Shown: one piece after another, positions 1 through 64,000 of the stretch | How the letters are laid out: each line of letters begins with the position of its first letter | How positions within the stretch are numbered: position 1 is the stretch's first letter | Origin: Caldifarciminota bacterium | GTDB taxonomy: Bacteria > Hydrothermota > Tepidihabitantia > Tepidihabitantales > Tepidihabitantaceae | NCBI GenBank assembly: GCA_026418295.1 | Contig: JAOABP010000002.1 | Span: forward strand, 90,244 to 154,243 | Length of the DNA stretch: 64,000 nucleotides | Direction of reading: 5' to 3' | The notes under the pieces: generated by a model | The model's input: only the letters and a program-made list of their open reading frames with translations | Database searches by the model: none | What the model was told of the DNA's origin: nothing | Program-made: the position numbers and the translations under genes

Positions 1-1006
1 AAATGGCGTCATCATAGCCGTAATAGTCTTCGGCGAAGAACATGTGGCCAGACATTTCGCCAGCAATCAGTGCTCCTTCTTCCTTCATCTTCGCCTTGAT
101 CAGGGAATGACCGGTTTTCCACATTACCGGAATACCCCCGAGTGATTGTATATATTCCACCAGCCCCTGAGAGCATTTGACCTCAAACACGATTCTGGCA
201 CCAGGATGCCGGGTGAGGATGTCACGGGCAAAGATTGCCAGCAGCCGGTCGCCGTAGAGCGTATTTCCTTTTTCATCAATGGCACCAATCCGGTCGGCGT
301 CACCGTCGTAACCGAATCCGCAGTCGGCACCCGTTTCCCGCACTAGGCTGACCGCCTGTTCAAGATGTTGGGGCACGGTCGGGTCTGGAACGTGGGCGGG
401 AAATGCGCCATCAGGGTTCAGATTGATGAATGTCGGCTGAAGCGGATAACCGCTGATCAGTCGTTCAAGCAGCACGCCGGCGGTGCCGTTACCTGGGTCA
501 AATACCACCTTGAGCGGACGGGTAATTTTTACCTTCTGGTGGCACAGCTGAATATAGGCGGGAATAACATCAGTTTCGTTGATTTGCCCTTTGCCAGTGC
601 GGAATCTGTCTGCTTCCATCAACCGGCGCAGCTCCTGGATTTCCTCACCGTAAATTGTAGTTTTGTGCAGGGCTATTTTGAAGCCATTTTCATCCGGTGG
701 ATTGTGGCTGGCGGTGATCATGATTCCTGCGTTGATGTTCAGATGGAAGCAGGAGAAGTAAAACACTGGGGTGGGCACAATGCCGATTTTTACCACATCT
801 ACCCCAGTGGCGGTCAGCCCCGCAACCAACGTCTTTTCAATTCGCGGACCCGAAAGTCGAACATCACGACCAATGATGCACTGATATACACCTTTGGACT
901 GAATATAAGTGCCGTACGCCTGACCGAACCTGTAAACTACTTCGTCGGTGAGATCACGATCAGCAATACCACGGATGTCATATTCCCGAAAAATCGCTGG
1001 GTTCAT
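1..1006 (-). CDS. Phosphomannomutase/phosphoglucomutase (3' end outside window)
   Basis: Interconverts hexose-6-phosphates and hexose-1-phosphates for cell-envelope sugar synthesis. The reading frame starts at ATG 1006 and runs off the left edge, giving about 335 of the usual ~450 residues. The start MNPAIFREYDIRG is the family's typical N-terminus. The phosphoserine loop ITASHNPPDENGFK and the metal-binding loop GYDGDADRIGAID are both intact. It lies downstream of the TRL lipoprotein gene but is separated from it by an intrinsic terminator, and it has its own promoter whose -10 ends close to the ATG, so the transcript is probably leaderless. No Shine-Dalgarno sequence precedes the ATG. Mannose versus glucose preference cannot be told from the visible part. 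Confidence 0.93.
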   Translation of the reverse strand, partial: MNPAIFREYDIRGIADRDLTDEVVYRFGQAYGTYIQSKGVYQCIIGRDVRLSGPRIEKTLVAGLTATGVDVVKIGIVPTPVFYFSCFHLNINAGIMITASHNPPDENGFKIALHKTTIYGEEIQELRRLMEADRFRTGKGQINETDVIPAYIQLCHQKVKITRPLKVVFDPGNGTAGVLLERLISGYPLQPTFINLNPDGAFPAHVPDPTVPQHLEQAVSLVRETGADCGFGYDGDADRIGAIDEKGNTLYGDRLLAIFARDILTRHPGARIVFEVKCSQGLVEYIQSLGGIPVMWKTGHSLIKAKMKEEGALIAGEMSGHMFFAEDYYGYDDAI

Positions 1007-1041
1007 ACTATAACTATAGCCGCAAATCACCCAGAGTGCAA
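1007..1041 (-). promoter_or_regulatory. Promoter of the phosphomannomutase gene (leaderless type)
   Basis: On the minus strand, TTGCAC (1041-1036), 17-base spacer, TATAGT (1018-1013), immediately repeated as TATAGT (1012-1007), then ATG at 1006. Initiation 6-8 bases after the first -10 falls on the start codon. The -35 overlaps the last base of the upstream terminator's T-run. Confidence 0.7.
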
Positions 1042-1069
1042 AAAAAACAGGAGGCGGAACGCCTCCTGT
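1041..1069 (-). terminator. Intrinsic terminator after the TRL lipoprotein gene
   Basis: A nine-base-pair GC-rich stem (1047-1055 with 1061-1069, loop 1056-1060) is followed on the minus strand by seven T residues (1047-1041). It sits about 20 bases after the stop codon at 1091. Confidence 0.9.
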
Positions 1070-1090
1070 CCGAATGTATTAGGTGGCAGG

Positions 1091-1423
1091 TTACTCGCCG
1101 TAGACGATGATGGTGTAGGTTGACCACAAACCAAGGATGCTCGTTACCTCCTGGTCAATATGGTGCACCTTGCTGATACCGCCCTGCTTCATAGCTGCTT
1201 CAAGGCTGGCATCACCGGTGGCAATGATGCCGAGAATATTGGTTGCAGTAACCTTGCTGACCTTGGCAGCCTGGGTTGCGGTCGGTCCGTAGTAGGCGAC
1301 TGCTTCCGCAGGCGTCCTTACTGAGGTGTAAAGAGTCCCTACGGTGTAGAATCCCGGGATGCAGCCAGTGAGCATGGTCAGGCAGACAACCGGGATGATT
1401 CCCAGCAGTAATGCCTTTCTCAT
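1091..1423 (-). CDS. TRL-like family lipoprotein
   Basis: A 110-residue secreted lipoprotein. The N-terminus MRKALLLGIIPVVCLTMLTGC is a lipoprotein signal peptide with lipobox LTGC. The mature part (GTLYTSVRTPAEA, ATNILGIIATGDASLEAAMKQGGISKVHHID, ILGLWSTYTIIVYGE) matches the small TRL-like family, known from spirochaetes and other diderms; its function is unknown. ATG 1423 is chosen over the longer upstream frame because GGAGGT lies just before it and because it puts the signal peptide at the N-terminus. It follows fusA by about 100 bases and ends in a strong terminator. Confidence 0.82.
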   Translation of the reverse strand: MRKALLLGIIPVVCLTMLTGCIPGFYTVGTLYTSVRTPAEAVAYYGPTATQAAKVSKVTATNILGIIATGDASLEAAMKQGGISKVHHIDQEVTSILGLWSTYTIIVYGE

Positions 1424-1524
1424 AAGTACCTCCTTTTGTTTTTCTGCCCCTGATGGCAGAGTTTGCCGCTGCATACGCCACAGTTTAGCAACCGGATGAA
1501 TATGTGTCAAGGAAAATCGGTGTT

Positions 1525-3603
1525 TCAGGAAGGCTTAGTGCCGAAGAGAGGGTAGAGGCGGATGCGCGTTGCTTCATCAACCGGGCTGAAGCGCTTGAAC
1601 TGCATTGAGTGGCTTGCCCGGCCTTGGGTCAGAGAGCGAAGCGTGGTAGCATAGCCAAAGGTATTGACGAGAGGAATTTCAGCGGTGATAATCTGGTGTC
1701 CTTTGACCGGCTCAAGATGAATGATTTTCCCCCCCCGGGCATTGATATCACCAAGGACGTTGCCGAGATAAGCCTCGGGAGTAACGACCTCCAGTTCCAT
1801 TATTGGTTCTAGGAATGTAGGGTGCGCTAGGAGAAAGGCTTCGCGGAACGCCTGAGTAGCTGCCAGTTTGAAGTCGACATCAGTTGAATCCACCTCATGG
1901 TAGGCGCCATCAATAATCCGCACACGGGTATTGATGATCGGATAGCCGGCAAGGACGCCTGATTCGAATGACTCTTCGATTGCCTGTTCAATTGCGGGAA
2001 TAAACTGCTTTGGGATTGTTCCTTCGCGGATTTCATTTACAATCCAGTTGCCATCCTTGGATGGCTCCAGTGTGAGTTTGACGACAGCAAAGTGCCCCCG
2101 ACCCCCGGTCTGACGGATGAACCGGCTCTCGTAAGTGGCGGCAGTGGTAATTGTTTCCCGGTAGGACACCTGAGGTTTGCCGGAATGAACCTCAACACGA
2201 TAATCGCGGGCAAGCCGGTCGAGAAGAATTTCCAGATGCAGTTCGCCCATGCCGGACAGGATCAGTTGACCGGTTTCCTCATCGGTTTTGACTTTGAAGG
2301 TCGGATCTTCAAGCGACATTGTTTCCAGGGCGGCATGAAGTCGATCTTCATCAGCGCGGGTTTTGGGTTCGATGGCGAGGAAGACCACCGGTTCCGGCGG
2401 TTTGATCGGTTCAAAGGCGATCGGATGGGCGAGATCGGCAAGCGTCTGTCCGGTCCTGCTTTCCTTCAGCCCGATTACAGCCCCAATTTCACCTGCGGCG
2501 AGTGAGTTTACTTCTTCTACCCGGTTGGCGTGCATAACTGCTAGACGCAGAATCCGTACCCGCTTCATTTCCGGAATCGTCATGACCACATCACCAGTTT
2601 CAACTCTACCGGAATATACCCGAATATAAGAGAGCATTCCCCGCTGGGGGTCGAAGCTGAGTTTGAAAACCAGTGCCGAAAATGGTGCCGAAGGGTCGGC
2701 GGGACGAATTTCTTCTTTGTTCGTTTTGGGATTAATGCCCTTGGCAGGCGGTATGTCCAGAGGAGAGGGGAGATAATCGACAATACCGTCAAGTAATTTC
2801 TGAATGCCTTTGTTCCGGAATGCGGCACCGCAGAATACGGGCACGATTTTCATTTCCAGAGTGCCTTTTCGGATCGCTGTCTTGATATCCTGCGGGGTAA
2901 TTTCTTCGCTGCGAAGATATTTGTCCAGAAGTGTTTCATCAAATGTTGTCAGGATATCAAGCAGTTGATGGCGGTATTCTTCCATTTCGGCAATGCGTTC
3001 CTGAGGTACTGGAAATGTTTTGTAGGTGGCTCCGAGATCATCACTCTGCCAGACACAGGCTTCCTGAGTAATGAGGTCAATCACACCAGTGAACTGATCT
3101 TCAATTCCGATTGGCAGCTGAACCGGTAGAGGAATCTGTTCAAATTTTTCCCTCATCATTTTCACTACGCGGTAGAAGTCGGCTCCGATCCGGTCGAGTT
3201 TGTTAATGAAGGCAATCCGGGGCACCCGATAGCGATCCGCTTGGCGCCATACTGTTTCGGTCTGAGGTTCTACGCCACCAACGCCGCAGAGGATAATAAC
3301 GGCTCCATCCAGGACTTTGAGCGAGCGTTCAACTTCAATAGTAAAATCTACATGGCCCGGGGTATCAATGATGTTGATCCGGTGGTCAAGCCAGTTGACA
3401 CTGGTTGCTGCGGCAGTGATTGTGATACCCCGTTCGCGTTCCTGAATCATCCAGTCCATCTGAGTCGTGCCTTCATCAATTTCGCCCATGCGGTGAATTC
3501 TGCCCGTATAATAAAGGATCCGTTCTGTTGTGGTTGTTTTACCGGCGTCGATATGTGCAGCGATTCCGATATTCCGGATGCGTTTCAAATCGTATTGTGC
3601 CAT
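1525..3603 (-). CDS. fusA: Elongation factor G
   Basis: GTPase that drives ribosomal translocation. Its 692 residues are normal for EF-G. The G domain is intact: [13 protein letters not shown] (P-loop), [11 protein letters not shown] (switch region), [13 protein letters not shown]. Domains II-V follow, including [10 protein letters not shown] and the domain IV loop region [10 protein letters not shown]. It does not sit in a str operon with rpsL, rpsG or tuf, so it may be a relocated single copy or a second EF-G; the sequence itself looks canonical. The ATG at 3603 has no Shine-Dalgarno sequence and follows a promoter by 8 bases. Confidence 0.97.
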
Positions 3604-3639
3604 AAATTAATATGCTAATTCAATATCAGAACCGGTCAA
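3604..3639 (-). promoter_or_regulatory. fusA promoter (leaderless type)
   Basis: Minus strand TTGACC (3639-3634), 16-base spacer, TAGCAT (3617-3612), then 8 bases to ATG 3603. Initiation 6-8 bases after the -10 leaves a leader of 0-2 bases. No purine-rich ribosome site is present. Confidence 0.6.
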
Positions 3640-3685
3640 GTTTAAATAGCTGCGATTAATGACAGCATGGCAGGCTGATTGCGGT

Positions 3686-4330: not shown

Positions 4331-5223
4331 TTCTTCCTCCTTCGTGAAGCGAAATAGGCAATATTGCCAACAACGATGAATACCATGATCGCGAGATGGG
4401 CAGCAGTCTGCGATGACATGGCTTCGGTGCCGGTGTTGCGCAATCCCCAGTCCATACCTTTATTCTTCATTCGTTTCTCAACCAACTGTTCGTATTCAGC
4501 GGCACCTTTCATTCCTGCAAGCATACCGATGAACTGCCCGGAGTTGACATAGGGATAGAAGTCGGCGGCAGAAACGGCGGTGATTCCACAGCTGAGGTTA
4601 ACGCCGAACTGGACTTGGGCGAAGTTAATCCAAGAGCGGGGCATTGCTGAAGCAGCAATGGATACAAGGATCCCGACATCATCGTAATTTTTGAGATCGC
4701 GCATAATTGGCAGACTTTCAGTCGGATTGCCGTAATAATCAACTGGGAAGACGCGTGTGATACGTTCCCCCATACCCAGCATTACAGTCAAAAGCGGTGT
4801 GGTCCAGCCCCAGAAAACAAAGTCTTCTCCGTAAATCACCGAGTCTTCGTGAGTCTGCGCCCGGGAGTTGAATTCATTTGTTACCTGCTGAATCGCTTCT
4901 TCTGCCAGACCCAGTCCATAAACCTGCATCGCCAAAATTCCCACCCGGCGTTTAATGGTGAATGCATGACGGAGCAGCGCAATTACCATCGGCTGGAGCT
5001 CAGCCCGGGTGTCAGGTGTGAAGTCAACCGAAATAACCAGCGCTTTGTTTTCCGGCATGGTATCGATATAGTTAAAGAGTTGTGCCACCGGAGTAGAAGC
5101 ACGGGGTTGAATTCGGAACGGGAATATCAGCGGCACCATGATGACCAGCCAGAGAACCAGATAGATCCAGCGCCGGTCAATTCGCTGCAGGCGGAGGAAG
5201 ATGTTTTCGTGCGTTGAACTCAT
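4327..5223 (-). CDS. Membrane-anchored protein of unknown function (third gene of membrane operon)
   Basis: 298 residues. One transmembrane segment lies near the N-terminus (IYLVLWLVIMVPLIFPF) and one near the C-terminus (LAIMVFIVVGNIAYFA), with a large domain between them (MPENKALVISVDFTPDTRAE to AAEYEQLVEKRMKNKG). The C-terminus RRRKK suits a cytoplasmic end, which would place the middle domain outside the membrane. The start at 5223 is chosen because it overlaps the previous stop as ATGA; the longer frame upstream would overlap the previous gene by over 120 bases. Function unknown. Confidence 0.8.
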   Translation of the reverse strand: MSSTHENIFLRLQRIDRRWIYLVLWLVIMVPLIFPFRIQPRASTPVAQLFNYIDTMPENKALVISVDFTPDTRAELQPMVIALLRHAFTIKRRVGILAMQVYGLGLAEEAIQQVTNEFNSRAQTHEDSVIYGEDFVFWGWTTPLLTVMLGMGERITRVFPVDYYGNPTESLPIMRDLKNYDDVGILVSIAASAMPRSWINFAQVQFGVNLSCGITAVSAADFYPYVNSGQFIGMLAGMKGAAEYEQLVEKRMKNKGMDWGLRNTGTEAMSSQTAAHLAIMVFIVVGNIAYFASRRRKK

Positions 5224-5885: not shown

Positions 5886-5894
5886 GAGTTCCTC

Positions 5895-6980: not shown

Positions 6981-7014
6981 ATGACTATATTATTTTTACT
7001 GGATGGGGAGTCAA
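6981..7014 (-). promoter_or_regulatory. Promoter of the four-gene membrane operon (leaderless type)
   Basis: Minus strand TTGACT (7014-7009), 16-base spacer, TAATAT (6992-6987), 6 bases, ATG at 6980. No Shine-Dalgarno sequence. Confidence 0.75.
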
Positions 7015-7044
7015 TGTGGTATAAATAACACTTACCGGAATCAG

Positions 7045-9338: not shown

Positions 9339-9378
9339 AATTAGTTATTCACAATAAATGAAAGATTCCCGATGTCAA
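9339..9378 (-). promoter_or_regulatory. iorAB promoter (near-leaderless)
   Basis: Minus strand TTGACA (9378-9373), 16-base spacer, TATTGT (9356-9351), 12 bases to ATG 9338. The expected leader is about 5 bases, without a ribosome site. It is divergent from the promoter at 9398-9425. Confidence 0.65.
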
Positions 9379-9397
9379 ATTAAATCAGTTAAAAAAT

Positions 9398-9425: not shown

Positions 9426-9465
9426 TTTGCAAATTTTATAATATTTTCAGTAAAAGGAGCAGATG

Positions 9466-10110: not shown

Positions 10111-10163
10111 TGTCCATAGACGCACCTGGTTCAGGTTGCAAACTGTTGTGATGTTACATCTGT

Positions 10164-12685: not shown

Positions 12686-12695
12686 GGAGGAGTGA

Positions 12696-13948: not shown

Positions 13949-16900
13949 ATGAGGACTGTATTGTGTGGTCTAATGCTGACCGGAGCAGTTGCATTTGCGC
14001 TGGTCGGCGGTTCTGATTTTATGTCGCCAGAGGACGGCTGGAGCGGAATTTTCAACCTTTCAGATGATGCAGTTGCCCAGTATATGGGTTATGGTTACCA
14101 GCACACAGTGGCGACTGATACCGGAGGTAATGTTCACGTCGTCTGGTATGATAACCGAGCCGGAACTAACCAGGTATTTTATCGGAAGTGGTCAAGATCA
14201 ACCGGTAGCTGGGGTCCGATTGTTCAAGTAACTAATCAGGTCGCTCCGGTTTATCGTCCGGCAGTCGCCTGTGACTATTCAGGTAATGTACATATTGTAT
14301 GGTACCACTCCACCGCTAATTACTACGGTATCTGGTATAAAAAATGGGATGTGGCGACCGGAACTTGGGGTGATTCGGTCCGGCTGTTCAATCCTGGAGG
14401 AAATTACCTCAATTACTATCCTTCCATTGCCTGCCGACCAGGTGGTAATAACATTCATGTGGTCTGGTACGGGAGAGATAGTGCCAATCCGACTTACTAT
14501 CGTGTGCGTCATATGGAATATGTTCCTGGTTCCGGTTGGAGTACGATTATGATCGTTGACACGATGGCGACCGGAACAACGGAAATTGCTTCGGTAGCGG
14601 TGGACAAATGGGACAGTGTCTACGTCGTCTGGCGAACTCAGGTTGCCGGGAACTATCAGGTGTTTTATCGTTGGAGAAGTGGCAGCGGTATCTGGCGGGA
14701 TATCGAGCAGGTTTCCAATGTAAATCCCAACGCCCCGATGTATGCCTGTGCGGTTGCTGTTGATACCGCCGGTTCAGCGGTGCATGTTGTCTGGAATGGA
14801 GATGTTCCCGGCAACTCTAATGACCGGATCTTTTGCCGCTCCCGAACGGGTTCCGGTTGGGATACAACCGAGATGATCAGTACCTATAACAACGGGTCTC
14901 AGTATGATCCAGTAGTGGCTATCGGGTCGGATGGTGCGGTTCACGTTAGTTGGCGGGGGTATACGGAAATATCCACAGCACGGCAGGAAATTCTTTACCG
15001 TGCAAAGCGGAATGGTATATGGGGTCCGGTAATCCAGCTGACCAACCGCAGTTCCGGTTCCAGCGTGCTGACACCTGCGCTTGCTGCCGGCAGGTTTGAT
15101 GATCTTCATTTCGCTTGGTATGACAATACCGATGGTGATAATGATGTTTATTATATTCGTGGAGAACTGGTTGATCCGGGTGTGGCACAAATTCTGGAGC
15201 CGACCGGAGGAATGGTTCCGGGGACTCAGGTCAATCCAAGGGCGGTCTGGCGGAACTACCGCCTGTATAATCAGACTGCATTAAAGGTGTACTGCTTTTT
15301 GATTAATCCTGCTGGAAGTCGTGTATACCGAGAGTCTGTAGATGTACCGGTGCTTGAGTCCGGTTCTGAGGATACAATTGTCTTTCCTAGTTTTATCGTT
15401 ACCAACACCGGGAATTGGACGGTCCGATGCTCAACCAGTGCCGAGTTGGATATTAACAGTACTAATGATGTTGCGGAAGTTAATTTCAGTGTCTATAATA
15501 CTGATATTCAGATGTTCCAGATTCAAGCTCCGACTGGAACAGTGGATACGGGAACAGTAGTGACACCGCGTGGACGCTGGTGGAACCGGTCGGCAAATCC
15601 GGCAAGTTTTGTTGCCTATTTCCAGCTGTTCAATTCCTCAGCGGCTTTAGTCTACTTTGAATCACTTGCGGTCAATAATCTTGAAGGGCATCAGGATATT
15701 ATCCTTAATTTTCCTTCATACCGGATTTCTGGACCTCCTGGAATTTGGCTAGCGCGGTGTTCCACTTTCTGCCTTAGTGATACATTTGCCGAAAATGACA
15801 CATTGCGCAGCTCTTTCACTGTTCGTGCTTTGCCTTACTGGCCCTACGGCTGGAAAGAGGTTAAGTCGATGCCTTTAGCTCCTTCAAACAAGGGGCCTGG
15901 CGATGGTGCCTGGCTGACTCAGTTGCGATTCGGTGGTAACCGGTATATCTTCGGATTGAAGGGTAACAAGACCGGTGATTTCTATCTTTATGATCCACTC
16001 GCCGATACTTGGCACCAGCTGAGACCAATGCCTATGGGGCGAGAATTAAAACCCCCACGCCGGGCATCGGTTGGTGTTGCCGGAGGGGATTATATCTATG
16101 CGACCAAGGGAAATAATACGCTCGGGTTCTGGCGGTATATTGTGGAACTGGATTCATGGGAACAGCTGGCAGATGTGCCAGAGGGCAGTGGGAAACGTGT
16201 AAAGGCCGGGACTGATATGGTATATATCAAACGGCCTCAGACAGATACTGGTTATGTTTACTTGTTAAAAGGATATACAGATGAATTTTACCGGTACAAT
16301 ACTATAAGCGGAACTTGGGAGAGTCTAGCACCAGCGCCCTTGACTGCCACAGGAAGAAGGTGGGACCGTGGTTCTTGGATGGTATATGCCAAAATAGGCC
16401 AAAATTTCTACATTTTTGCCCACAAATCGAAATACCACGAACTCTGGAAATATGATGTATTGGGTGATTCCTGGTTCAGTTCCCAGTTGCGGGGGATGCC
16501 GTATTCAAGTAGACTTACCGGAAAATCAAAGAAGGCTAAGGATGGCAGTGCCGGTGCTTATTATGATGAGGCGATCTATGCCCTTAAAGGTGGTAATACT
16601 TGTGAGTTCTGGCGTTACGATGTGTTGGGAGATTCTTGGGCCGAGCTGGATACTATGCCTTCGGTTGGTTCTTTGGGGAAGAGAAAGCGGGTAAAGGGTG
16701 GGGGTGATATTGTCCTGTACCAAGATGGCGCATTTTTTGCTCTAAAGGGCGGAAAGTCGCCGGAGTTCTGGCGTTATTATCTTTGTGACACAATCTTCGC
16801 TGAAAGACCGGATCATTCCCCAATTACAAGTAGTTCCTCGAGCGAAATGTCCGAGAGCCAACTGCTCATAACCAACCCGATTACTAATGGGTTAATTAAA

Positions 16901-17086
16901 CTGCAACTACCCGAATCCCATTCTATGTTCATCGAGATTTATGATGTTAGCGGCAGAATGGTGCTGGCACAACAGGCGAGCGGAAAAACGGGTGTGTTGG
17001 AGATCAGAGATTTTTCTCCAGGTGTGTATCTGTTTAAAGTGACATCGAGCGGGAAGGTTGCTCGCTGCAAGCTGATAGTTAGGTAG
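13949..17086 (+). CDS. Large secreted surface protein: propeller, two Ig-like repeats, lysine-rich kelch-like block, sorting domain
   Basis: 1045 residues. A signal peptide (about 1-18) leads to a propeller of repeated strands with the theme NVHVVWYDNRAG..QVFYRKW (about 45-410). Two Ig-like repeats follow (about 410-520 and 525-625), each with a VxPRxxWxN strand and WxxRCST. A kelch-like block (about 629-947) has the signature KGNxTxxFxxYxxxxDxW in six blades, and the C-terminus is a T9SS-type sorting domain (MFIEIYDVSGRMVLAQQ, FSPGVYLFKV). Kelch block, Ig repeats and tail are shared with the protein at 36362-39010. AGGAGG precedes the ATG. Binding or adhesion is plausible; no enzyme motif is seen. 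Confidence 0.85.
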   Translation: MRTVLCGLMLTGAVAFALVGGSDFMSPEDGWSGIFNLSDDAVAQYMGYGYQHTVATDTGGNVHVVWYDNRAGTNQVFYRKWSRSTGSWGPIVQVTNQVAPVYRPAVACDYSGNVHIVWYHSTANYYGIWYKKWDVATGTWGDSVRLFNPGGNYLNYYPSIACRPGGNNIHVVWYGRDSANPTYYRVRHMEYVPGSGWSTIMIVDTMATGTTEIASVAVDKWDSVYVVWRTQVAGNYQVFYRWRSGSGIWRDIEQVSNVNPNAPMYACAVAVDTAGSAVHVVWNGDVPGNSNDRIFCRSRTGSGWDTTEMISTYNNGSQYDPVVAIGSDGAVHVSWRGYTEISTARQEILYRAKRNGIWGPVIQLTNRSSGSSVLTPALAAGRFDDLHFAWYDNTDGDNDVYYIRGELVDPGVAQILEPTGGMVPGTQVNPRAVWRNYRLYNQTALKVYCFLINPAGSRVYRESVDVPVLESGSEDTIVFPSFIVTNTGNWTVRCSTSAELDINSTNDVAEVNFSVYNTDIQMFQIQAPTGTVDTGTVVTPRGRWWNRSANPASFVAYFQLFNSSAALVYFESLAVNNLEGHQDIILNFPSYRISGPPGIWLARCSTFCLSDTFAENDTLRSSFTVRALPYWPYGWKEVKSMPLAPSNKGPGDGAWLTQLRFGGNRYIFGLKGNKTGDFYLYDPLADTWHQLRPMPMGRELKPPRRASVGVAGGDYIYATKGNNTLGFWRYIVELDSWEQLADVPEGSGKRVKAGTDMVYIKRPQTDTGYVYLLKGYTDEFYRYNTISGTWESLAPAPLTATGRRWDRGSWMVYAKIGQNFYIFAHKSKYHELWKYDVLGDSWFSSQLRGMPYSSRLTGKSKKAKDGSAGAYYDEAIYALKGGNTCEFWRYDVLGDSWAELDTMPSVGSLGKRKRVKGGGDIVLYQDGAFFALKGGKSPEFWRYYLCDTIFAERPDHSPITSSSSSEMSESQLLITNPITNGLIKLQLPESHSMFIEIYDVSGRMVLAQQASGKTGVLEIRDFSPGVYLFKVTSSGKVARCKLIVR

Positions 17087-17606: not shown

Positions 17607-18188
17607 TTAAACCGGTTTGCAGATGATCTGTTTGATTTTTGTATCGAAGAAATGATGGGAATGGGCTGGGCGGATAACTATTGCAGTATCTGCCCCAGAG
17701 CCAGTTCCCCCAATGCTGATGATGTCTTTGCCATAAGGTATCAGACCGGCATCCAATGCCATAACCGCTATTTCTACTGCTACTTTGAATCCTTCTCCTA
17801 ACGTGCGATATGTGTGGGCGACGATTTCCGCTGGTCCAATACCGCCGAACTCCTGACGTAGTGCACGATCAATGCCGGCCAAAAGATGTGTGGTTCTCAA
17901 AACAGGGACGCCAAGCGCATTTAATTTCTTTTCAATTGAAGGGGATAATTCCTGAGAACCGGGTTCACGAAAACCGGAGTGGTGAGTGATGCATACCGGA
18001 TGCATTTCGCCGCAGATTAGTCTAGAGAGTTTCAATGCAGTTTTCCCGGTAGTTGATGCTACGACAATATTGAGGGTCTTGGTGCGCTGAGCGTGGTGGA
18101 CTGCGAGTGCCAGGGTGCTCTCAGTATTAGAAGGTCCAGCACAGGGAAAATAAGTGGTTTCAAATCGAAAGCGTCTTTTCTTCAACAA
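17607..18188 (-). CDS. Pyruvate kinase C-terminal (alpha/beta) domain-like protein
   Basis: 193 residues resembling the stand-alone pyruvate-kinase C-domain family (COG1751-like) found in archaea and anaerobic bacteria: NTESTLALAVHHAQ, IVVASTTGKTALKLSRL, VCITHHSGFREPG, IPYGKDIISIGGTGSGADTAIVI. There is no pyruvate kinase barrel, so it is not a complete kinase; the family's role is unknown. The only usable start is TTG 18188 (TTG repeated at 18185), 6 bases after a promoter -10, which makes it a candidate leaderless TTG start. Confidence 0.8.
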   Translation of the reverse strand: MLKKRRFRFETTYFPCAGPSNTESTLALAVHHAQRTKTLNIVVASTTGKTALKLSRLICGEMHPVCITHHSGFREPGSQELSPSIEKKLNALGVPVLRTTHLLAGIDRALRQEFGGIGPAEIVAHTYRTLGEGFKVAVEIAVMALDAGLIPYGKDIISIGGTGSGADTAIVIRPAHSHHFFDTKIKQIICKPV

Positions 18189-18222
18189 TAAACTATTTTA
18201 ATAATTTCGGCATCAAATTCAA
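18189..18222 (-). promoter_or_regulatory. Promoter of the PK-domain/HIT operon (leaderless, TTG start)
   Basis: Minus strand TTGAAT (18222-18217), 16-base spacer, TAAAAT (18200-18195), 6 bases, TTG at 18188. No ribosome site. Confidence 0.55.
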
Positions 18223-21698: not shown

Positions 21699-21727
21699 TT
21701 GACTTGCAAATGAAGTCTGGTTAACAT
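21699..21727 (+). promoter_or_regulatory. Promoter of the 157-aa unknown gene (near-leaderless)
   Basis: TTGACT (21699-21704), 17-base spacer, TAACAT (21722-21727), 10 bases to ATG 21738. The expected leader is 3-5 bases. No ribosome site. Confidence 0.6.
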
Positions 21728-21737: not shown

Positions 21738-22211
21738 ATGCTTTATATTCAATACCTTGATTTAAAGCAGTTCATTGATTCTTCTCGAATATTTTTTGGA
21801 GAAGGCCGGGGTGAGTGTGGGGTTGCACTGCATTTGCCGATTAAGAACTACATGGCTGGCAGTGCACCAGCGACCGATTATGCGTTAATGATTACTGTTG
21901 CCAATCACCTGATTGAGTTTCTGCTTTATAAGCGACTGAATCGCGGACCACAGCAGTGGGATTATAATCCGGAGAAAGCAGCTGAAATTTATACAGTATG
22001 CGGAGATAATGTCTCAACCAGCGGAATTATTATTGAGGACCGTAATTATCCATCTGGCGCAAAGCTCCAAGTATTTCTCGACAAGACTTTCGGAGTAAAT
22101 GAGGTGGCAATCCGCTGGAAGGGGCAGATGGTGGGTGACGAGCGGCTCCTTGCTGACTATGAGGAGTATCTAAAAAGTTACTTAAGTGGTGATACTTCGG
22201 CCGAAGAATAA
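21738..22211 (+). CDS. Unknown 157-residue cytoplasmic protein
   Basis: No signal peptide or membrane segment. I recognise no family. It contains FFGEGRGECGVALHLPIKNYMAGSA, a Cys-bearing stretch EIYTVCGDNVSTSGIIIEDRNYPSG, and a charged helical C-terminus (DERLLADYEEYLKSYL). Composition and codon use look like its neighbours, so it is probably a real gene. It has its own near-leaderless promoter and is followed by the HD hydrolase gene. Confidence 0.65.
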   Translation: MLYIQYLDLKQFIDSSRIFFGEGRGECGVALHLPIKNYMAGSAPATDYALMITVANHLIEFLLYKRLNRGPQQWDYNPEKAAEIYTVCGDNVSTSGIIIEDRNYPSGAKLQVFLDKTFGVNEVAIRWKGQMVGDERLLADYEEYLKSYLSGDTSAEE

Positions 22212-22951: not shown

Positions 22952-22980
22952 TTGACTTTACTCCTATTCCAATTTATGCT
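22952..22980 (+). promoter_or_regulatory. Promoter of the MBL-mutL-miaA-metK-ahcY operon
   Basis: TTGACT (22952-22957), 17-base spacer, TATGCT (22975-22980). ATG 22984 begins only 3 bases later and TTG 22987 6 bases later, so either the start is very close to the -10 or translation begins at TTG 22987. Confidence 0.6.
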
Positions 22981-33499: not shown

Positions 33500-33531
33500 A
33501 ATTAATTTATTTGAATTCCCTCAAAAGTCAA
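33500..33531 (-). promoter_or_regulatory. clpC-bamA promoter (leaderless type)
   Basis: Minus strand TTGACT (33531-33526), 16-base spacer, TAAATT (33509-33504). ATG 33499 is 4 bases on and ATG 33493 10 bases on; initiation 6-8 bases after the -10 would favour the second ATG. Confidence 0.6.
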
Positions 33532-36163: not shown

Positions 36164-36201
36164 TTACACGAAAATACTATATTATTTTATAATTGAGTCA
36201 A
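36164..36201 (-). promoter_or_regulatory. Promoter of the 858-aa secreted protein (near-leaderless, GTG start)
   Basis: Minus strand TTGACT (36201-36196), 16-base spacer, TAGTAT (36179-36174), 10 bases to GTG 36163. The expected leader is about 3 bases. Confidence 0.55.
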
Positions 36202-36231: not shown

Positions 36232-36361
36232 TTGACTTAGGCAGAAATTTCATTATACTCAATACACTCGGTTATGGGGTGGCGCCGGGTTTGGAATGTG
36301 CGGTGCTGTGGTGTTAAGCCGCGGGTATTAGATTAAAAGAGGTCGAGTGAAAGGAGGCGAA
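36232..36361 (+). promoter_or_regulatory. Promoter and long leader of the 882-aa surface protein
   Basis: TTGACT (36232-36237), 16-base spacer, TATACT (36254-36259). The leader of about 95 bases is G/C-rich in its middle and ends in AAGGAGG (36351-36357) before ATG 36362. Like its paralogue at 13949 it has a leader of about 100 bases, but I see no sequence similarity between the two leaders. Confidence 0.7.
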
Positions 36362-39010
36362 ATGGCAGGCAAGGTAGGTATGGTAGTAAAAAACGGCGTC
36401 TTCCTCGCCATTTTAGGCGTTAATTTCCTCCCCGGTTCAGAGTTTGATCAGACTTGGAAAATTGGCGATAACAAATATCTTACTCGTATATATCCCGTTC
36501 CGGTTTTCTTCAGTTCGACCAAAGGGGAATCTCTCAAATTTATGTCCGACTCAGTCAAACGCTGCTATCCAGATGACAATACATACTGGACAGGATCTTT
36601 GGCAAAAAAAGGTAATCAGTATTCCAAATCATCCGGCACAGTAAGAGTAAGCAGTGAACCCTCTGGCGGGTCTGACTGGTGGTATCAGGGCTGGTTCAAG
36701 TTCAACCTCTCTGCTATTCCCGACAGTTCCACAATTGATACTGTTGCATTGAACTTTTATTGTTCCAACCGTTCCTCACAGATTCCCTATGCATATGTTC
36801 GTCTTCTGCCCGGTGATCCTGTTTCAGCCAGTGATCCGACATTATGGTCCTGGTTAACTACAGGTACAATCGTAAGTCCCGCACGAAGTATTGATTTGAA
36901 TTGGCAGACGCGCGGTTTGAATGCAATTGGCAAGGCAGCGGTGGAGTCCTGCCTTGGTCAGAACTGGATAGCATTCGGGTTGCATGAATTCACTTACCGC
37001 ACCGGTGCCTGGGCAGAAGTGAAAGGTCATGGAAGCGGAGAAAATACCCCGTATCTGGAGATTGCATATACCTTGCCCGCCCGATCAGATATTTCCATGG
37101 AGGAGATTCTCGAACCTGGATTTGTTTTGCCTGTGGGAACGATAGTAACGCCTACCGGACGGTGGCGTAATCGTCAGCCCCACCCGGATAATTATTATGC
37201 TTGGTTTATTTTTATAAACCCTGCGGGTCAAAGAACAACTTTGCCTGGAATTCAGGTTTTGGGACAGCGCGGTGAGAGCGATACGGTGCTTTTCTTTACT
37301 CCCTTTGCCTTTAATGATACCGGTCTCTGGATAGTCAGGTGTTCAACTTATGCTGAGAATGACATTGATCCGAACAATGATATTCGAGAACGTTATTTCC
37401 GGGTTATTCAGAATTCCGGAGGTAACTGTTTTGATGTAGCAGTTACGGAAATCACTTCGCCCGTCGGCGTGATTGATACTGGTTCAACGGTTGTCCCAAG
37501 AGCCCGCTGGCGCAATCAATCCGGCAATCCGGCGACATTTTTTGCTTACTGTGCATTGATTAACCCTGAAGGGATAAGGACATACACAAATTCGGTCCTG
37601 CTTAGTGATTTTCCCCCCTCGGCTGATACAACCATTGAATTTACACCTTATAATATCGGGTACCAGACAGGGCAGTGGGCGGTTGTCTGTTCTACAGTGG
37701 CTCTGGGCGATACAAATCCAGATAATGACTGGCGCTGGGGCAGTTTCAGTGTGGCTGCGGGCGGGGGGTCCCCGAAAGGCTGGCATGAAGTTTCTTCTGT
37801 CCCGCTACCGCCCTCCAGCAAAGCAGTTAAAGATGGGGGGTGGTTGACTTATGACCAGGGCAGCGGTCTGTTCTTTATTGCCAAAGGAAATAAGACGGGT
37901 GATTTTTATTCCTATGATCCGGTAGCAGATACTTGGCGGGAGTTGTGTTTATGGCCCGGAGGGATTGAGAATAAAGGACCGGCAAAGGGGGCGACTGGCG
38001 CAGCGGATGGTGCGGGTCATGTTTTTGCGGTAAAAGGGAACAATACACTGGGGTTTTGGTGCTACTATATCGATGGTGATTCTTGGCATCAGCTTCGTGA
38101 TGTGCCGGCAGGACCTTCTGGAAAGAAGGTCAAGGGCGGTTCAGATATGGTGGTCATAAATCAGAGTGGAAATCAGTACGTGTATCTGCTGAAGGGATAT
38201 AAGAACGAGTTTTACCGTTATCACTGTAATGGCGACAGCTGGGAACAGTTGCCAGATGCACCACAGGCACTCCATCCGAAATGGGACAAGGGTTCTTGGC
38301 TTGCATACGACGGTAACCGCTATATTTATGCGCATAAAGCCAAATATCACGAATTCTGGCGGTTTGATCTCTATACCGCCGCTTGGGACACCCATCGCCT
38401 TAAGGGTATGCCGTTTCTCAGTCGTACCGGTAAAAACAAAAAGGCAAAGGATGGTTCTAGCGGTGCCTATTTGAATGGAGGCGTTTTTGCATTGAAAGGT
38501 GGAAACACCTGTGAGTTTTACCGGTATGAACCTGAAGGTGATACTTGGACCGAACTGGAGCCGATGCCCGAGGTGGGATCTACAGGAAAGAAAAAAAGGG
38601 TTAAAGGTGGAGGAGATCTGGTGGCTATGGGGGAAAATATCCTCTATGCGCTTAAGGGTAACAAGACCCGTGAGTTGTGGTACTATTGCTATGTTCCAGA
38701 AGCAGATGCGTTGGGGAATGGCGTTCAATCTGAAATTACGACTCCTGTTTTCACGAAAGAACGGATCAGAATTTTCCCCAGCCTGGCGAGAGAAGGTGTG
38801 CTTGCGCTTGAATTTGAGGAGGAAATGCGCTTCCTGTTTCCGCTAAAAGGCGCGCTTTACGACAATGCGGGCAAGCTGGTGCAAATCTTTGCAATCGATT
38901 CTCATCGCGCCAGCCTCAATCTTACCCAATTGCCTGCAGGAATTTACTGGGTTTCACTTGAAAACCAGTCCGGATTGCGGTTCTTCCGGAAGATCATAAT
39001 TGCTCATTAG
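36362..39010 (+). CDS. Large secreted surface protein: DNRLRE-like domain, two Ig-like repeats, lysine-rich kelch-like block, sorting domain
   Basis: 882 residues. Signal peptide (about 1-25), then a jelly-roll-like DNRLRE-type domain (about 55-235: GWFKFNLSAIPDSSTIDTV, LEIAYTLPA). Two Ig-like repeats follow (about 240-460; VTPTGRWRNR..WIVRCST and VVPRARWRNQ..WAVVCST), then the six-blade kelch-like block (about 468-780; AKGNKTGDFYSYDPVADTW, LKGGNTCEFYRYEPEGDTW) and a sorting domain (LYDNAGKLVQIF, LPAGIYWVSL). The N-terminal domain differs from the 13949 paralogue while the rest is homologous, so the modules were shuffled. ATG 36362 is chosen over GTG 36347 because AAGGAGG lies between them. 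Confidence 0.85.
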   Translation: MAGKVGMVVKNGVFLAILGVNFLPGSEFDQTWKIGDNKYLTRIYPVPVFFSSTKGESLKFMSDSVKRCYPDDNTYWTGSLAKKGNQYSKSSGTVRVSSEPSGGSDWWYQGWFKFNLSAIPDSSTIDTVALNFYCSNRSSQIPYAYVRLLPGDPVSASDPTLWSWLTTGTIVSPARSIDLNWQTRGLNAIGKAAVESCLGQNWIAFGLHEFTYRTGAWAEVKGHGSGENTPYLEIAYTLPARSDISMEEILEPGFVLPVGTIVTPTGRWRNRQPHPDNYYAWFIFINPAGQRTTLPGIQVLGQRGESDTVLFFTPFAFNDTGLWIVRCSTYAENDIDPNNDIRERYFRVIQNSGGNCFDVAVTEITSPVGVIDTGSTVVPRARWRNQSGNPATFFAYCALINPEGIRTYTNSVLLSDFPPSADTTIEFTPYNIGYQTGQWAVVCSTVALGDTNPDNDWRWGSFSVAAGGGSPKGWHEVSSVPLPPSSKAVKDGGWLTYDQGSGLFFIAKGNKTGDFYSYDPVADTWRELCLWPGGIENKGPAKGATGAADGAGHVFAVKGNNTLGFWCYYIDGDSWHQLRDVPAGPSGKKVKGGSDMVVINQSGNQYVYLLKGYKNEFYRYHCNGDSWEQLPDAPQALHPKWDKGSWLAYDGNRYIYAHKAKYHEFWRFDLYTAAWDTHRLKGMPFLSRTGKNKKAKDGSSGAYLNGGVFALKGGNTCEFYRYEPEGDTWTELEPMPEVGSTGKKKRVKGGGDLVAMGENILYALKGNKTRELWYYCYVPEADALGNGVQSEITTPVFTKERIRIFPSLAREGVLALEFEEEMRFLFPLKGALYDNAGKLVQIFAIDSHRASLNLTQLPAGIYWVSLENQSGLRFFRKIIIAH

Positions 39011-39053: not shown

Positions 39054-39082
39054 TTGCCAAAGAAGTAATTATGTGTTAAAAT
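39054..39082 (+). promoter_or_regulatory. Promoter of the TPR-protein gene (near-leaderless)
   Basis: TTGCCA (39054-39059), 17-base spacer, TAAAAT (39077-39082), 9 bases to ATG 39092. No ribosome site. Confidence 0.55.
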
Positions 39083-41066: not shown

Positions 41067-41094
41067 TTGACTGTTAAAATTTTGCTGTTATGAT
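41067..41094 (+). promoter_or_regulatory. tRNA-Val promoter
   Basis: TTGACT (41067-41072), 16-base spacer, TATGAT (41089-41094), 8 bases before the first base of the mature tRNA. It shows the same geometry as the leaderless mRNA promoters. Confidence 0.85.
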
Positions 41095-47659: not shown

Positions 47660-47687
47660 ATTTTAGAGCAAACTTGATTAAAGTCAA
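47660..47687 (-). promoter_or_regulatory. tRNA-Leu promoter
   Basis: Minus strand TTGACT (47687-47682), 16-base spacer, TAAAAT (47665-47660), 8 bases before the tRNA 5' end. Same geometry as the tRNA-Val promoter; divergent from the transglutaminase promoter. Confidence 0.8.
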
Positions 47688-47701: not shown

Positions 47702-47729
47702 TTGACAGCAGAATTCGCTGTGTTATGCT
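47702..47729 (+). promoter_or_regulatory. Promoter of the transglutaminase gene (leaderless)
   Basis: TTGACA (47702-47707), 16-base spacer, TATGCT (47724-47729), 6 bases, ATG 47736. No ribosome site. Confidence 0.75.
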
Positions 47730-49161: not shown

Positions 49162-49189
49162 TTGACCGGCGTCAGGTGCCGGATATAAT
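49162..49189 (+). promoter_or_regulatory. fabH promoter (leaderless, GTG start)
   Basis: TTGACC (49162-49167), 16-base spacer, TATAAT (49184-49189), 7 bases, GTG at 49197. The upstream in-frame GTG 49176 lies inside the spacer, so it cannot be on this transcript. Confidence 0.8.
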
Positions 49190-49196: not shown

Positions 49197-50249
49197 GTGA
49201 ATTATCTAAATTCGATATGGAAGCCACAGGAACAGCAGGGCGGTGAGAACAGGTTGCCGAATATCGGATATTCCGCAGTCATTGCCGGTACCGGGTTTGA
49301 TGTTCCGGAAAGGGTGCTGACCAATGAGGACTTGGAGAAGATTCTGGATACATCCGATGAATGGATTACCGAGCGGACTGGAATGAAGGAACGCAGGATT
49401 GCAGCTCCAACTGAAGCTGCATCCGATTTTGCCTGCCGAGCAGCGCAGCGGGCGCTGGAGGAAGCAGGTGTCCCGGCTGAGGAGCTGGATCTGATTATCG
49501 TTGCCACTGTGACCGGCGATATGCCCTTTCCTTCAACCGCCTGTATTGTCCAGGACCGGTTGGGTGCCCGGAATGCAGCGGCAATGGATTTGGGTGCCGG
49601 ATGTTCTGGATTCATCTACGGTTTGACTACCGCCCGCCAGTTCATTGCTACAGGCACTTACCGGACCATTCTGGTTATCGGAGTCGAGGTTCTTTCCAAA
49701 ATCACCGATTGGACCGATCGCAGTACCGCAGTACTGCTGGCTGATGGCGCGGGTGCCGTCGTGTTGCGTGCGGATCAAAATCAGGGGCGGGGAATCATTG
49801 CTACTTATCTGGCAGCTGACGGTTCCCATGGTAATGATTTATATATGCCAGCGGGGGGATCGCGGATTCCTGCATCGATTGAGTCGGTTCAGCAACGGCT
49901 TCATTACCTGAAGATGAATGGCAGTGCTATTTTCAAGATTGCGGTGCGTTCAATGGCGGATGTGGTGAAGCGGCTTCTGGACCAGGCAAGACTTCGGGCG
50001 GAAGACATTAAGCTGGTCATTCCCCATCAGGCTAATCTCCGGATAATTGAGGCGATGGCAAAGTTGCTGAATTTTCCGATGGAGCGGGTATTCGTAAATA
50101 TCCAGAAATATGCGAATACATCATCAGCATCTACAATTATTGCACTGGATGAAGCACGGAAATCGGGTCGGGTCCGGCAGAATGATCTGATAATCATGGT
50201 GGCTTTTGGCGCCGGTCTGACTTGGGGTGGAGTTTTAATCCGTCTGTAA
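49197..50249 (+). CDS. fabH: 3-oxoacyl-ACP synthase III
   Basis: 350 residues from GTG 49197. Condenses acetyl-CoA with malonyl-ACP to start fatty-acid synthesis. Catalytic triad: Cys in DLGAGCSGFIYGL, His in IPHQANLRIIEAM, Asn in KYANTSSAS; also DEWITERTGMKERRIA and the C-terminal GAGLTWGGVLIRL. The N-terminus has an unusual extra ~30 residues before the normal start of the fold (YSAVIAGTGFDVPERVLTNED). The start follows from the promoter position; no ribosome site is present. Confidence 0.95.
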   Translation: MNYLNSIWKPQEQQGGENRLPNIGYSAVIAGTGFDVPERVLTNEDLEKILDTSDEWITERTGMKERRIAAPTEAASDFACRAAQRALEEAGVPAEELDLIIVATVTGDMPFPSTACIVQDRLGARNAAAMDLGAGCSGFIYGLTTARQFIATGTYRTILVIGVEVLSKITDWTDRSTAVLLADGAGAVVLRADQNQGRGIIATYLAADGSHGNDLYMPAGGSRIPASIESVQQRLHYLKMNGSAIFKIAVRSMADVVKRLLDQARLRAEDIKLVIPHQANLRIIEAMAKLLNFPMERVFVNIQKYANTSSASTIIALDEARKSGRVRQNDLIIMVAFGAGLTWGGVLIRL

Positions 50250-55927: not shown

Positions 55928-56798
55928 CTCTTTTTTTGCCTAGGATTCCACTCGGACGAATCAAAAGGACCAGTATCAGGATGCCAAATGCCGCTGCATC
56001 GCGGAGGGTTGAGGAAATGTAGACTTCGGTTAGCTTTTCCACTATTCCCATAATAATTGCACCAAGCAAGGCACCGGGAATAATTCCGATTCCCCCGAGC
56101 ACTGCGGCAATAAATGCCTTTAGTCCCGGCATGATACCCATAAATGGATGAATTTGGGGATAGGCGATGCCATAAAGTACACCTCCGGCGCCGGCAAGTG
56201 CTGCACCGATTCCGAATGTAATGGAAATAATGTTATCCACATCTATCCCCATAAGCCGTGCAGTATCATGGTCAAATGAGACTGCTCTCATTGCCAGTCC
56301 GGTTTTGGTCCGGTTAACAAAGATTGTAAGGGCGATCATTAACAGGATTGCTACGGCAAGAACGATAATCTGAATGTTGGAAATTGTGATACCGGCAATT
56401 GTGAAAGTACGAATGGGAAAGGGGCGGGGGTAGGCGCGAAAATACGGTCCAAAGACAAACTTCAGGCTGGAGAAGTATTCCAAGAAAAGCGATACACCAA
56501 TTGCAGTAATAAGGGCTGAGATACGGGCGGCACGGCGGAGTGGTTTATAAGCAACTCGTTCGATAAAGACGCCTAAGAGTGCACAGCCGACCATTGCCAG
56601 TATGATTGCAACAGGAAAGGGTAAATGCCAGGAGGTGAGTGCAAAAAATCCCAGATAGGCCCCGACCATGAATACATCACCGTGGGCAAAATTTATCAGG
56701 CGGACAATGCCGTACACCATGGTATAACCAAGTGCGATCAGAGCATACACGAAGCCGAGCTGAATTCCGTTTATCAGTTGTTGCAAAAAATATGACAA
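55914..56798 (-). CDS. livH: Branched-chain amino-acid-type ABC transporter permease
   Basis: 294 residues with about eight helices. LivH hallmarks: QLINGIQLGFVYALIALGYTMVYGIVRLINFAHGDVFMVGAYLG, TGLAMRAVSFDHDTARLMGIDVD, GLKAFIAAVLGGIGIIPGALLG. The start is TTG 56798, 8 bases after a promoter -10, with no ribosome site: a candidate leaderless TTG start. No periplasmic binding protein gene (livK) lies in the cluster. Confidence 0.93.
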   Translation of the reverse strand: MSYFLQQLINGIQLGFVYALIALGYTMVYGIVRLINFAHGDVFMVGAYLGFFALTSWHLPFPVAIILAMVGCALLGVFIERVAYKPLRRAARISALITAIGVSLFLEYFSSLKFVFGPYFRAYPRPFPIRTFTIAGITISNIQIIVLAVAILLMIALTIFVNRTKTGLAMRAVSFDHDTARLMGIDVDNIISITFGIGAALAGAGGVLYGIAYPQIHPFMGIMPGLKAFIAAVLGGIGIIPGALLGAIIMGIVEKLTEVYISSTLRDAAAFGILILVLLIRPSGILGKKRDEKV

Positions 56799-56834: not shown

Positions 56835-56846
56835 GGAAGTCAGATA

Positions 56847-56874
56847 TTGACATCATATTGGATAGGGTGATAAT
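56847..56874 (+). promoter_or_regulatory. Promoter of the 482-aa secreted protein
   Basis: TTGACA (56847-56852), 16-base spacer, GATAAT (56869-56874). The leader is about 20 bases and contains AAAGGAG before ATG 56902. Divergent from the liv promoter. Confidence 0.6.
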
Positions 56875-56901
56875 TTGGTATTGAAACCAAAGGAGTAAAA
56901 A

Positions 56902-58822: not shown

Positions 58823-58844
58823 TTTAGTACATGGTATCTGTTAC

Positions 58845-59732: not shown

Positions 59733-59735
59733 TTG

Positions 59736-62903: not shown

Positions 62904-62921
62904 CAAACGAAATAATTTTGC

Positions 62922-62950
62922 TTGACATTAATCGTTTACAGCCTCATAAT
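62922..62950 (+). promoter_or_regulatory. Promoter of the PilP/GspC-like gene
   Basis: TTGACA (62922-62927), 17-base spacer, CATAAT (62945-62950). The leader of about 40 bases ends in GGGAGG (62988-62993). Confidence 0.65.
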
Positions 62951-62997
62951 ATAGAGCGTAATGTCTGAACAAAAAACCCAAAGGAGCGGGAGGTATT

Positions 62998-63582
62998 ATG
63001 ATGTCCTCTGGTAAAACCGGATCGTCAGGGGTGCGTGTTCCACGCCGGTCCCCGCCAAAACAGGAAAAAGCACAATACATAATGTTTGCAGTCGTAGCTG
63101 TTCTAGTTATTACCGTCGTTCTTGTTGTAGCCTTTGGGGGGAGGAAAGGGACTTCAGCAAAAGTACCGCAACGAACAAAGAGTGTAGCAACAAGGCTGAC
63201 GGAAACAGGTAGTGCAGCATCTAGGCGTTCAAGAGAACAATTTGCTTCTCGAGCTTCTCGGCGCGAGCGCAGTAAAAAGGAGTCGACAGGAGATTTCCGG
63301 GCGCGGCGGCGGCGTGAACGTGCAGAGCGTCGGACAGTGGCGTCCCGAACAAGCATAAGAAGCAGCCGTGGTGGGTATACTGCCAGACGCAGCGGAACGC
63401 CGGTACTGCAAGCTATTATATCTCAGCCAGACGGTGAAAGGGTCGCAGTGGTCGGGAGTCGACAGGTTAAAAAAGGTGATCTAATAGAAGGGAGGAGAAT
63501 AACTGAAGTCGGTCCGGATCGGGTGAAAATCGAGTACTTTACTAAGACTTATGAAGTCAGACTCAACCAACCAATTTATTAA
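62998..63582 (+). CDS. Inner-membrane protein with Arg/Ser-rich linker and PilP/GspC-like domain
   Basis: 194 residues: short cytoplasmic N-terminus, one membrane helix (YIMFAVVAVLVITVVLVVAF, about 28-47), an extremely Arg/Ser/Glu-rich linker (about 50-130; RRSREQFASRASRRERSKK, FRARRRRERAERRTVASR), and a small C-terminal domain (LQAIISQPDGERVAVVGSRQVKKGDLIEGRRITEVGPDRVKIEYFTKTYEV) with the pattern of PilP/GspC homology domains that contact secretins. A type IV pilus or type II secretion accessory role is inferred. Two adjacent ATGs (62998, 63001) follow a strong ribosome site. Confidence 0.72.
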   Translation: MMSSGKTGSSGVRVPRRSPPKQEKAQYIMFAVVAVLVITVVLVVAFGGRKGTSAKVPQRTKSVATRLTETGSAASRRSREQFASRASRRERSKKESTGDFRARRRRERAERRTVASRTSIRSSRGGYTARRSGTPVLQAIISQPDGERVAVVGSRQVKKGDLIEGRRITEVGPDRVKIEYFTKTYEVRLNQPIY

Positions 63583-63588
63583 TATTAA

Positions 63589-64000
63589 GTGCTTTCTACG
63601 ATAATTAGACGTTCCTGCTTGTTCATTACTCTGATTTTTTCTTTGATATCCGCACGAGACTTGCTCTACAATGGAAATTTTGAACTCCCTCCGGATTCTG
63701 GTTGGCAGATTATACGGTGGGGAGAATTCCCTGACACTGGTAATTGTCGAGTACGGTGGCGACATAGTTATCATCCTGACCGTGATTTTGAAGTCATGCT
63801 CCACAAATTACTTCATCAAGGAATCAAACTGTTCCAAAAAGTCAGCATTTCTACCTTGGATCTTGAATTCCGTGTATCCTGTCGTTTGATAGCAAGAAGT
63901 GAGAGTGACAGTTTATTTGCAGCCGCGGCTGTTGGAATGGAGTATTTAGATAACAACGACTCGTTACTAGGTGAAACGAGAATCGTCTACGCGACTGCCG
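63589..64000 (+). CDS. Secreted protein, truncated by the window end
   Basis: An open frame runs from GTG 63589 to the window edge (137 codons) without a stop. The N-terminus VLSTIIRRSCLFITLIFSLISA is a signal peptide, and the mature part starts RDLLYNGNFELPPDSGWQIIRW, the NG-NFE opening typical of CBM4/9-like jelly-roll domains and similar to NLLVNGDFSNW in the protein at 41627-42469. It begins 6 bases after the previous stop without a ribosome site, so it is probably translationally coupled. C-terminus unknown. Confidence 0.7.
   Translation, partial: MLSTIIRRSCLFITLIFSLISARDLLYNGNFELPPDSGWQIIRWGEFPDTGNCRVRWRHSYHPDRDFEVMLHKLLHQGIKLFQKVSISTLDLEFRVSCRLIARSESDSLFAAAAVGMEYLDNNDSLLGETRIVYATA

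Follow-up and report, generated by a model that had tools for sequence, protein, structure and literature searches.

The question raised by this stretch of DNA, a 64-kb window (all 64,000 nucleotides of which were analysed) of contig JAOABP010000002.1 from a Caldifarciminota bacterium, is whether promoters lying directly against the start codons of operon-first genes give rise to mRNAs with little or no leader. The original prediction was that leaderless or near-leaderless messages with a fixed promoter geometry are systematic at operon heads, and this is well supported by sequence: a promoter of the TTGACA/TATAAT type whose -10 hexamer ends 3–12 nt before the start codon is found at 59 of 237 heads compared with 2.4 expected, and the arrangement is conserved in relatives. 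We conclude that many heads very probably give mRNAs with leaders of 0–6 nt, beside heads and internal genes that are led by Shine-Dalgarno (SD) sites.

Promoter placement at operon heads

A total of 644 kb was sampled from the genome containing the window (1.80 Mb in 16 contigs, 96.7% complete), namely the window itself and 29 further stretches of 20 kb each; the counts below refer to this sample unless another scope is given. Genes were called by codon usage alone, blind to promoters and SD sites, giving 527 genes with 88% of the DNA coding. Heads (n=237) are genes whose upstream neighbour is divergent, or lies on the same strand more than 25 nt away; internal genes (n=251) have a same-strand neighbour no more than 25 nt upstream, and 39 genes with no upstream neighbour within their stretch were left out. 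Adjacent promoters were scored by a strict rule that demands at least 9 of 12 matches to TTGACA-N16-18-TATAAT, A at position 2 and T at position 6 of the -10, and a -10 end 3–12 nt before the start; heads passing it are referred to as near heads, and expected counts come from first-order Markov resampling of every upstream region.

By this rule, internal genes carry adjacent promoters in 3 of 251 cases (1.0 expected), such promoters being confined to first and single genes, as is characteristic of bacterial leaderless (TA-led) genes. They are present at 43 of the 188 heads that are divergent or have a gap of at least 70 nt, against a resampled mean of 1.9 and a largest value of 6 in 20 runs, and at 16 of the 49 heads with a 26–69-nt gap (0.35 when resampled). 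An unsupervised motif search of the same 188 heads returned TTGACN, ending mostly 28–33 nt before the start, and among the 251 internal genes it returned AAGGAG ending 5–8 nt before the start, bearing out the earlier claim that genes inside operons use SD sites.

The distances from the -10 end to the start at near heads are 3 nt (2 heads), 4 (1), 5 (8), 6 (15), 7 (7), 8 (9), 9 (9), 10 (4), 11 (2), and 12 (2), with a peak at 5–9 nt and a mode of 6; the rest of the class peaks at the same place, and TA-led genes are marked by a -10-like signal roughly 10 bp upstream of the start. Aligning upstream regions on their starts, which had been proposed as a check, therefore gives the positional -10 peak looked for, with SD nearly absent from the 59 near heads. 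Spacers are 16 nt (38 heads), 17 nt (19) or 18 nt (2), and the start codons are 48 ATG and 11 GTG, the lack of TTG meaning little because the gene caller penalises TTG starts. When the -10 alone is scored, the strength of the peak is 3.6-fold in this genome versus 0.6-fold in E. coli. Across the whole genome, the pattern TTGACN{17,19}TANNNTN{5,9}ATG has 137 matches versus 19 for a backward-pattern control, and shifting the distance gives 41 (N{0,4}), 68 (N{10,14}) and 34 (N{25,29}).

Promoter-like sites 13–72 nt upstream are also in excess, at 38 of 237 heads versus 13.1 expected. Net of chance, and at a threshold of 9, about 53 heads have a -10 ending 4–10 nt before the start, whereas a site at 13–72 nt is present at about 24, and the adjacent share among heads with a recognisable promoter is 60–69% over thresholds 7–10. 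To this extent leaderless expression can be called dominant, as had been proposed, but among all heads it accounts for about one quarter, and 63 of the 178 others bear an SD. The near-head count is lowered by imperfect start calls; in the window, the caller placed the starts at 36163, 56798 and 22262 downstream of those first given, and that at 49197 upstream, and did not call the genes at 1006 and 18188.

Orthologs were present in the fetched loci of the same family for 18 of the 59 near heads, and the promoter is kept at 0–14 nt in 31 of 33 ortholog pairs versus 0.25 expected, compared with 0 of 61 pairs for other heads and 0 of 47 for internal genes; leaving out clpC, it is kept in 17 of 19 pairs by a hand tally. 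At clpC itself, the adjacent promoter is present in every one of the family and order loci that were parsed (20 of 24, counting this genome), several of which have an in-frame stop 6–12 nt before the ATG. Six class-level clpC loci have no site above 8/12 (three reach 8), and in the class-level relatives L026, L029 and L030 clpC starts with TTG after a purine run resembling an SD and has no strong adjacent promoter, suggesting that this one gene has changed its mode of initiation.

The same two boxes precede tRNA genes, which supports them as real promoters and supports the initiation distance as well. In this genome, 25 of 27 first-in-cluster tRNA genes (loci L119–L177 and the window) have a promoter no more than 80 nt upstream, and in 21 of the 27 the -10 ends 7–14 nt before the mature 5' end, nearer in none, give or take one base, as ARAGORN tRNA ends can be off by one. 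Both tRNA genes of the window have the distance of exactly 8 nt from which initiation had been calibrated, although in view of the genome-wide range the calibration is a rough one. RNase P RNA is present, and the 5' leaders of pre-tRNAs should, on this prediction, be very short.

RNA polymerase normally initiates about 6–8 nt past the -10. With the -10 mostly ending 5–9 nt before the start codon, transcription would start on the start codon itself or only a few bases before it. In the explanation we favour, many operon-first genes would be transcribed from housekeeping-sigma promoters (TTGACN, mostly a 16–17-nt spacer, TANNNT), the resulting mRNA would be leaderless or near-leaderless with no room for an SD, and ribosome and initiator tRNA would presumably start translation on the 5'-terminal AUG or GUG, as in other bacteria; internal genes and a share of heads would use SD sites and a normal anti-SD. 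The geometry, its excess over chance, the exclusion of SD sites, the conservation and the class-wide spread are observed, and from them we infer where the RNAs really begin and how ribosomes load onto them.

Ribosome sites, start codons and alternative explanations

An SD motif is present at 1 of 59 near heads, compared with 63 of 178 other heads and 126 of 251 internal genes, and 7–12% in a control stretch. Starts free of SD sites are as expected of TA-led genes, whereas standard SD-led initiation, with the SD 5–8 nt before the start, is found at internal genes and not at near heads; nor is SD absent genome-wide, as would be expected of the Bacteroidetes type. The rest of the class behaves similarly, with SD in 2 of 94 near heads versus 125 of 337 other heads. 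In the window, none of the 14 listed sites carries an SD, as originally stated, and SD-led heads also occur, for example at 9463 (+) and 46116 (-). The 16S rRNA 3' end is the canonical anti-SD, ribosomal protein S1 is full length, and there is a match to IF3. Most likely, then, the two kinds of initiation operate side by side, as they do in other bacteria that have leaderless genes.

If the promoters were real and the start codons wrong, translation would begin downstream of ordinary short leaders. In its favour, the start has to be moved at a few sites, namely clpC by two codons and perhaps 22984 and 18188. We nevertheless consider it improbable, as an SD-plus-start occurs downstream at no more than the background frequency (7 of 59 near heads versus 37 of 251 internal genes and 22 of 178 other heads). 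Identity in codons 2–10 is 0.65, 0.79 and 0.40 by codon position in eight pairs with family members other than the congener, such that codon conservation holds within the first ten codons, whereas the 60 nt upstream in the same pairs are flat at 0.34–0.39 with no codon pattern; the N-termini of ClpC likewise agree with those of relatives from the first residues. In the other direction, an in-frame stop lies within 36 nt upstream at 49 of 59 near heads, compared with 64 of 118 cases when the two remaining frames are read, and upstream starts are therefore mostly closed off.

The adjacent promoter might instead be secondary, with most of the translated mRNA coming from an upstream promoter and having a leader, and the excess of promoter-like sites at 13–72 nt is consistent with this. 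Such a transcript should depend on a ribosome site, but the SD frequency at near heads is below even that of the control stretch, and this explanation too is unlikely. More improbable still is that the AT-rich motif is no promoter and represents a Bacteroidetes-type non-SD translation signal on a leadered mRNA. Two proteins of the window do have Por_Secre_tail domains, which are typical of the broad Bacteroidetes group, but a -35 box at the right distance emerges de novo, tRNA genes have the same boxes, internal genes use SD, the arrangement persists at 62–63% GC (G004, and G014 with G016), and Bacteroidota themselves have no clear excess (5 of 170 heads versus 3.6 expected in 16 loci, and a -10-only ratio of 1.2 in 13 loci). 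A chance or base-composition artefact of AT-rich spacers is hardly credible, for although up to 12.5% of resamplings match single sites, the pattern as a whole is not reproduced by resamplings, backward or shifted patterns, internal genes or comparison genomes.

Several observations nevertheless weigh against leaderless expression from adjacent promoters as we propose it. By the strict rule, 178 of 237 heads have no such promoter, leaving it at only about a quarter of heads, and any gene may have a further promoter upstream that yields a leadered mRNA. Two of the 33 ortholog pairs are without the promoter, each being the sole ortholog seen for its gene, and clpC provides 14 of the 33, with one locus counted twice. 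The codon pattern has only the eight non-congener pairs behind it, and this genome's infC match to IF3 (L273) bears a flag for a single in-frame TGA, perhaps the gene's own stop. Single sites are often weak, as their best score is reached in 0–12.5% of 200 Markov resamplings and in at least 6% for five of 13; the weight of evidence is in the group of sites and their conservation. Finally, the strict rule gives 1 of 21 heads on a D. deserti plasmid (0.1 expected), 0 of 22 in Thermus and 0 of 33 in Rhodococcus, all known leaderless lineages. The requirement for a -35 explains these low scores at least in part; when only the -10 is scored, the peak is 4.2-fold (21 heads), 7.0-fold (22) and 1.6-fold (33) respectively, in small plasmid samples.

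Distribution among relatives and comparison with known systems

The same pipeline finds near promoters in all 10 class rows that exceed six heads, the genome itself not counted and two rows pooling two genomes each; the proportions run from 6 of 51 to 9 of 22. In G029, also of the class, 0 of 6 heads have one. Outside the class they are present at 12 of 143 heads versus about 3.2 expected. Elsewhere the counts are 0 of 82 in E. coli (0.8 expected), 1 of 161 in Planctomycetota (0.9), 1 of 92 in Verrucomicrobia (0.8), 2 of 38 in Omnitrophota (0.3), 1 of 51 in Nitrospirota (0.2), 0 of 32 in Gemmatimonadota and 2 of 101 in others (1.2), although a rule that requires a -35 misses known leaderless lineages and such low counts do not mean that leaderless genes are absent there.

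In all 65 class genomes the pattern has 15,564 matches versus 938 backward, and at 25–29 nt 4,885 versus 1,013. Net density per Mb is 56 to 156 in the class. The phylum's 82 other genomes span -6 to 87, and 45 comparison genomes, hand-picked from 80 loci (41 named as other groups and four only as 'bacterium'), span -8.6 to 21.5. By family, net matches per Mb range from 142.9 down to -2.5, with f17, f21 and f30 near f1, and f31 nil; in f31, f23 and f34 the values (-2.5 to 6.1) are at or near the backward control, and the leaderless mode, or the TTGAC promoter itself, is apparently missing or changed in these families. This graded spread over related families could allow gain and loss to be traced on a tree.

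A bolder proposal, in our judgement somewhat more doubtful than probable, is that throughout the class a promoter placed for a gene's first base is the default: from full -35/-10 promoters, transcription of most operon-first genes would begin on the start codon itself and that of most tRNAs on the mature 5' end or a few bases from it, mRNAs would be leaderless, many pre-tRNAs would hardly need 5' trimming, and neighbouring families would grade to none. Leaderless expression as a default mode is thus a possibility.

Leaderless genes are already known and widespread in the reports drawn on in part here (PMC3160421, PMC9581028, PMC5397173), and this lineage is a strong further case. A survey of 953 bacterial genomes (downloaded in 2010), in the portion used, equates a TA-like signal some 10 bp upstream of the start with leaderless genes, and gives more than 20% leaderless genes in Actinobacteria and Deinococcus-Thermus, with operon-distal genes usually SD-led (PMC3160421); the near heads are like these TA-led genes in both the signal and the SD-led distal genes. 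In D. radiodurans, according to sections of one study, a -10 lies about 6–7 bp before the open reading frame in nearly one third of genes, alongside a ribosome-binding site (RBS) motif, and is read as indicating leaderless mRNA, and in Deinococcus-Thermus a TANNNT -10 suffices while a -35 strengthens expression (PMC12340547). The '-10-motif' genes of that group are alike in -10 placement and RBS coexistence, but differ in that here a good TTGAC -35 is the strongest de novo signal, which argues, from sequence only, against its dispensability. Mycobacteria, within the Actinobacteria, have many leaderless transcripts mapped experimentally in the parts of two reports consulted (PMC3898074, PMC4633059), whereas the 5' ends here are predicted from sequence. 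In archaea, first and single genes are leaderless and distal genes SD-led, in the same survey's partial account (PMC3160421). The split between first or single genes and distal genes is the same as here. Archaeal leaderless genes have archaeal promoters and initiation factors, unlike those described here.

With these data, a large lineage joins those in which the sequence signature of leaderless expression is clear; they also suggest that a canonical anti-SD and a full-length S1 are found alongside leaderless heads. Programs that look for an SD or a leader when calling genes may put starts in the wrong place, and start-codon annotation of these genomes could draw on the promoter.

Individual sites in the window

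The original prediction listed 13 operon heads with an adjacent promoter and a weaker fourteenth, and all 14 sites are present in the sequence. Of the 13, 12 pass the strict rule, that at 1006 only with a poor -35. The site at 56798 holds up by its score, but its -10, TATAAA, failed the strict rule. The start at 22262 (+), put forward as a weaker fourteenth, is indeed weaker, scoring 8/12, failing the strict rule and having no promoter by eye in the congener G001. The list was not complete, as a site at 1474 (-) had been overlooked.

Table. Promoters adjoining start codons and tRNA genes in the 64-kb window.
Promoter	Coordinates	Strand	Distance from -10 end and remarks
TTGACA-N17-TAAACT	1482..1510	-	7 nt before ATG 1474; 10/12; kept in G001 at 7 nt
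Promoter-like, TATAGT -10, poor -35 (TTTGCA)	1013..1042	-	6 nt before ATG 1006; G001 ortholog aligns from residue 1
TTGACC-N16-TAGCAT	3612..3639	-	8 nt before ATG 3603; EF-G-like gene; kept in G001
TTGACT-N16-TAATAT	6987..7014	-	6 nt before ATG 6980; DUF6754 gene; 7 nt in G001
TTGACA, weak -10 TATTGT	9351..9378	-	12 nt before ATG 9338; TPP/ferredoxin oxidoreductase-like gene; kept in G001
TTGAAT-N16-TAAAAT	18195..18222	-	6 nt before TTG 18188; start uncertain
TTGACT-N17-TAACAT	21699..21727	+	10 nt before ATG 21738
TTGACT-N17-TATGCT	22952..22980	+	3 nt before ATG 22984; start codon uncertain
TTGACT-N16-TAAATT (clpC)	33504..33531	-	4 nt before ATG 33499, 10 nt before conserved ATG 33493
TTGACT-N16-TAGTAT	36174..36201	-	10 nt before GTG 36163; by eye in G001
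TTGCCA-N17-TAAAAT	39054..39082	+	9 nt before ATG 39092; TPR gene; kept in G001
TTGACT-N16-TATGAT (tRNA-Val)	41067..41094	+	8 nt before mature 5' end 41103
TTGACT-N16-TAAAAT (tRNA-Leu)	47660..47687	-	8 nt before mature 5' end 47651
TTGACA-N16-TATGCT	47702..47729	+	6 nt before ATG 47736; transglutaminase-like gene; kept in G001; TTGACA by eye in G003 and G009 homologs
TTGACC-N16-TATAAT	49162..49189	+	7 nt before GTG 49197; ketoacyl-ACP synthase III-like; 11/12; by eye in G001; domains found on open reading frame from 49176
TTGACT-N16-TATAAA	56807..56834	-	8 nt before TTG 56798; permease gene; 10/12; by eye in G001

Some of the start positions first given are to be corrected or are uncertain. At clpC, the congener lacks the first ATG and relatives begin at MQERF, so that translation probably starts at 33493, 10 nt beyond the end of the -10. 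At 22984 the TTG of the next codon is possibly the real start, and at 18188 the homologs in G003 and G009 align only from residue 13 and by eye have their own adjacent promoter and ATG elsewhere. At 21738 the upstream DNA of the congener differs by eye, yet a promoter adjoins the same ATG in both genomes.

The EF-G-like gene at 1525-3603 (-), which is under an adjacent promoter, could be either the main EF-G or a paralog. The Por_Secre_tail domains are at the C-termini of two large Kelch-repeat proteins (13949-17086 and 36347-39010, +), and may point to type IX secretion.

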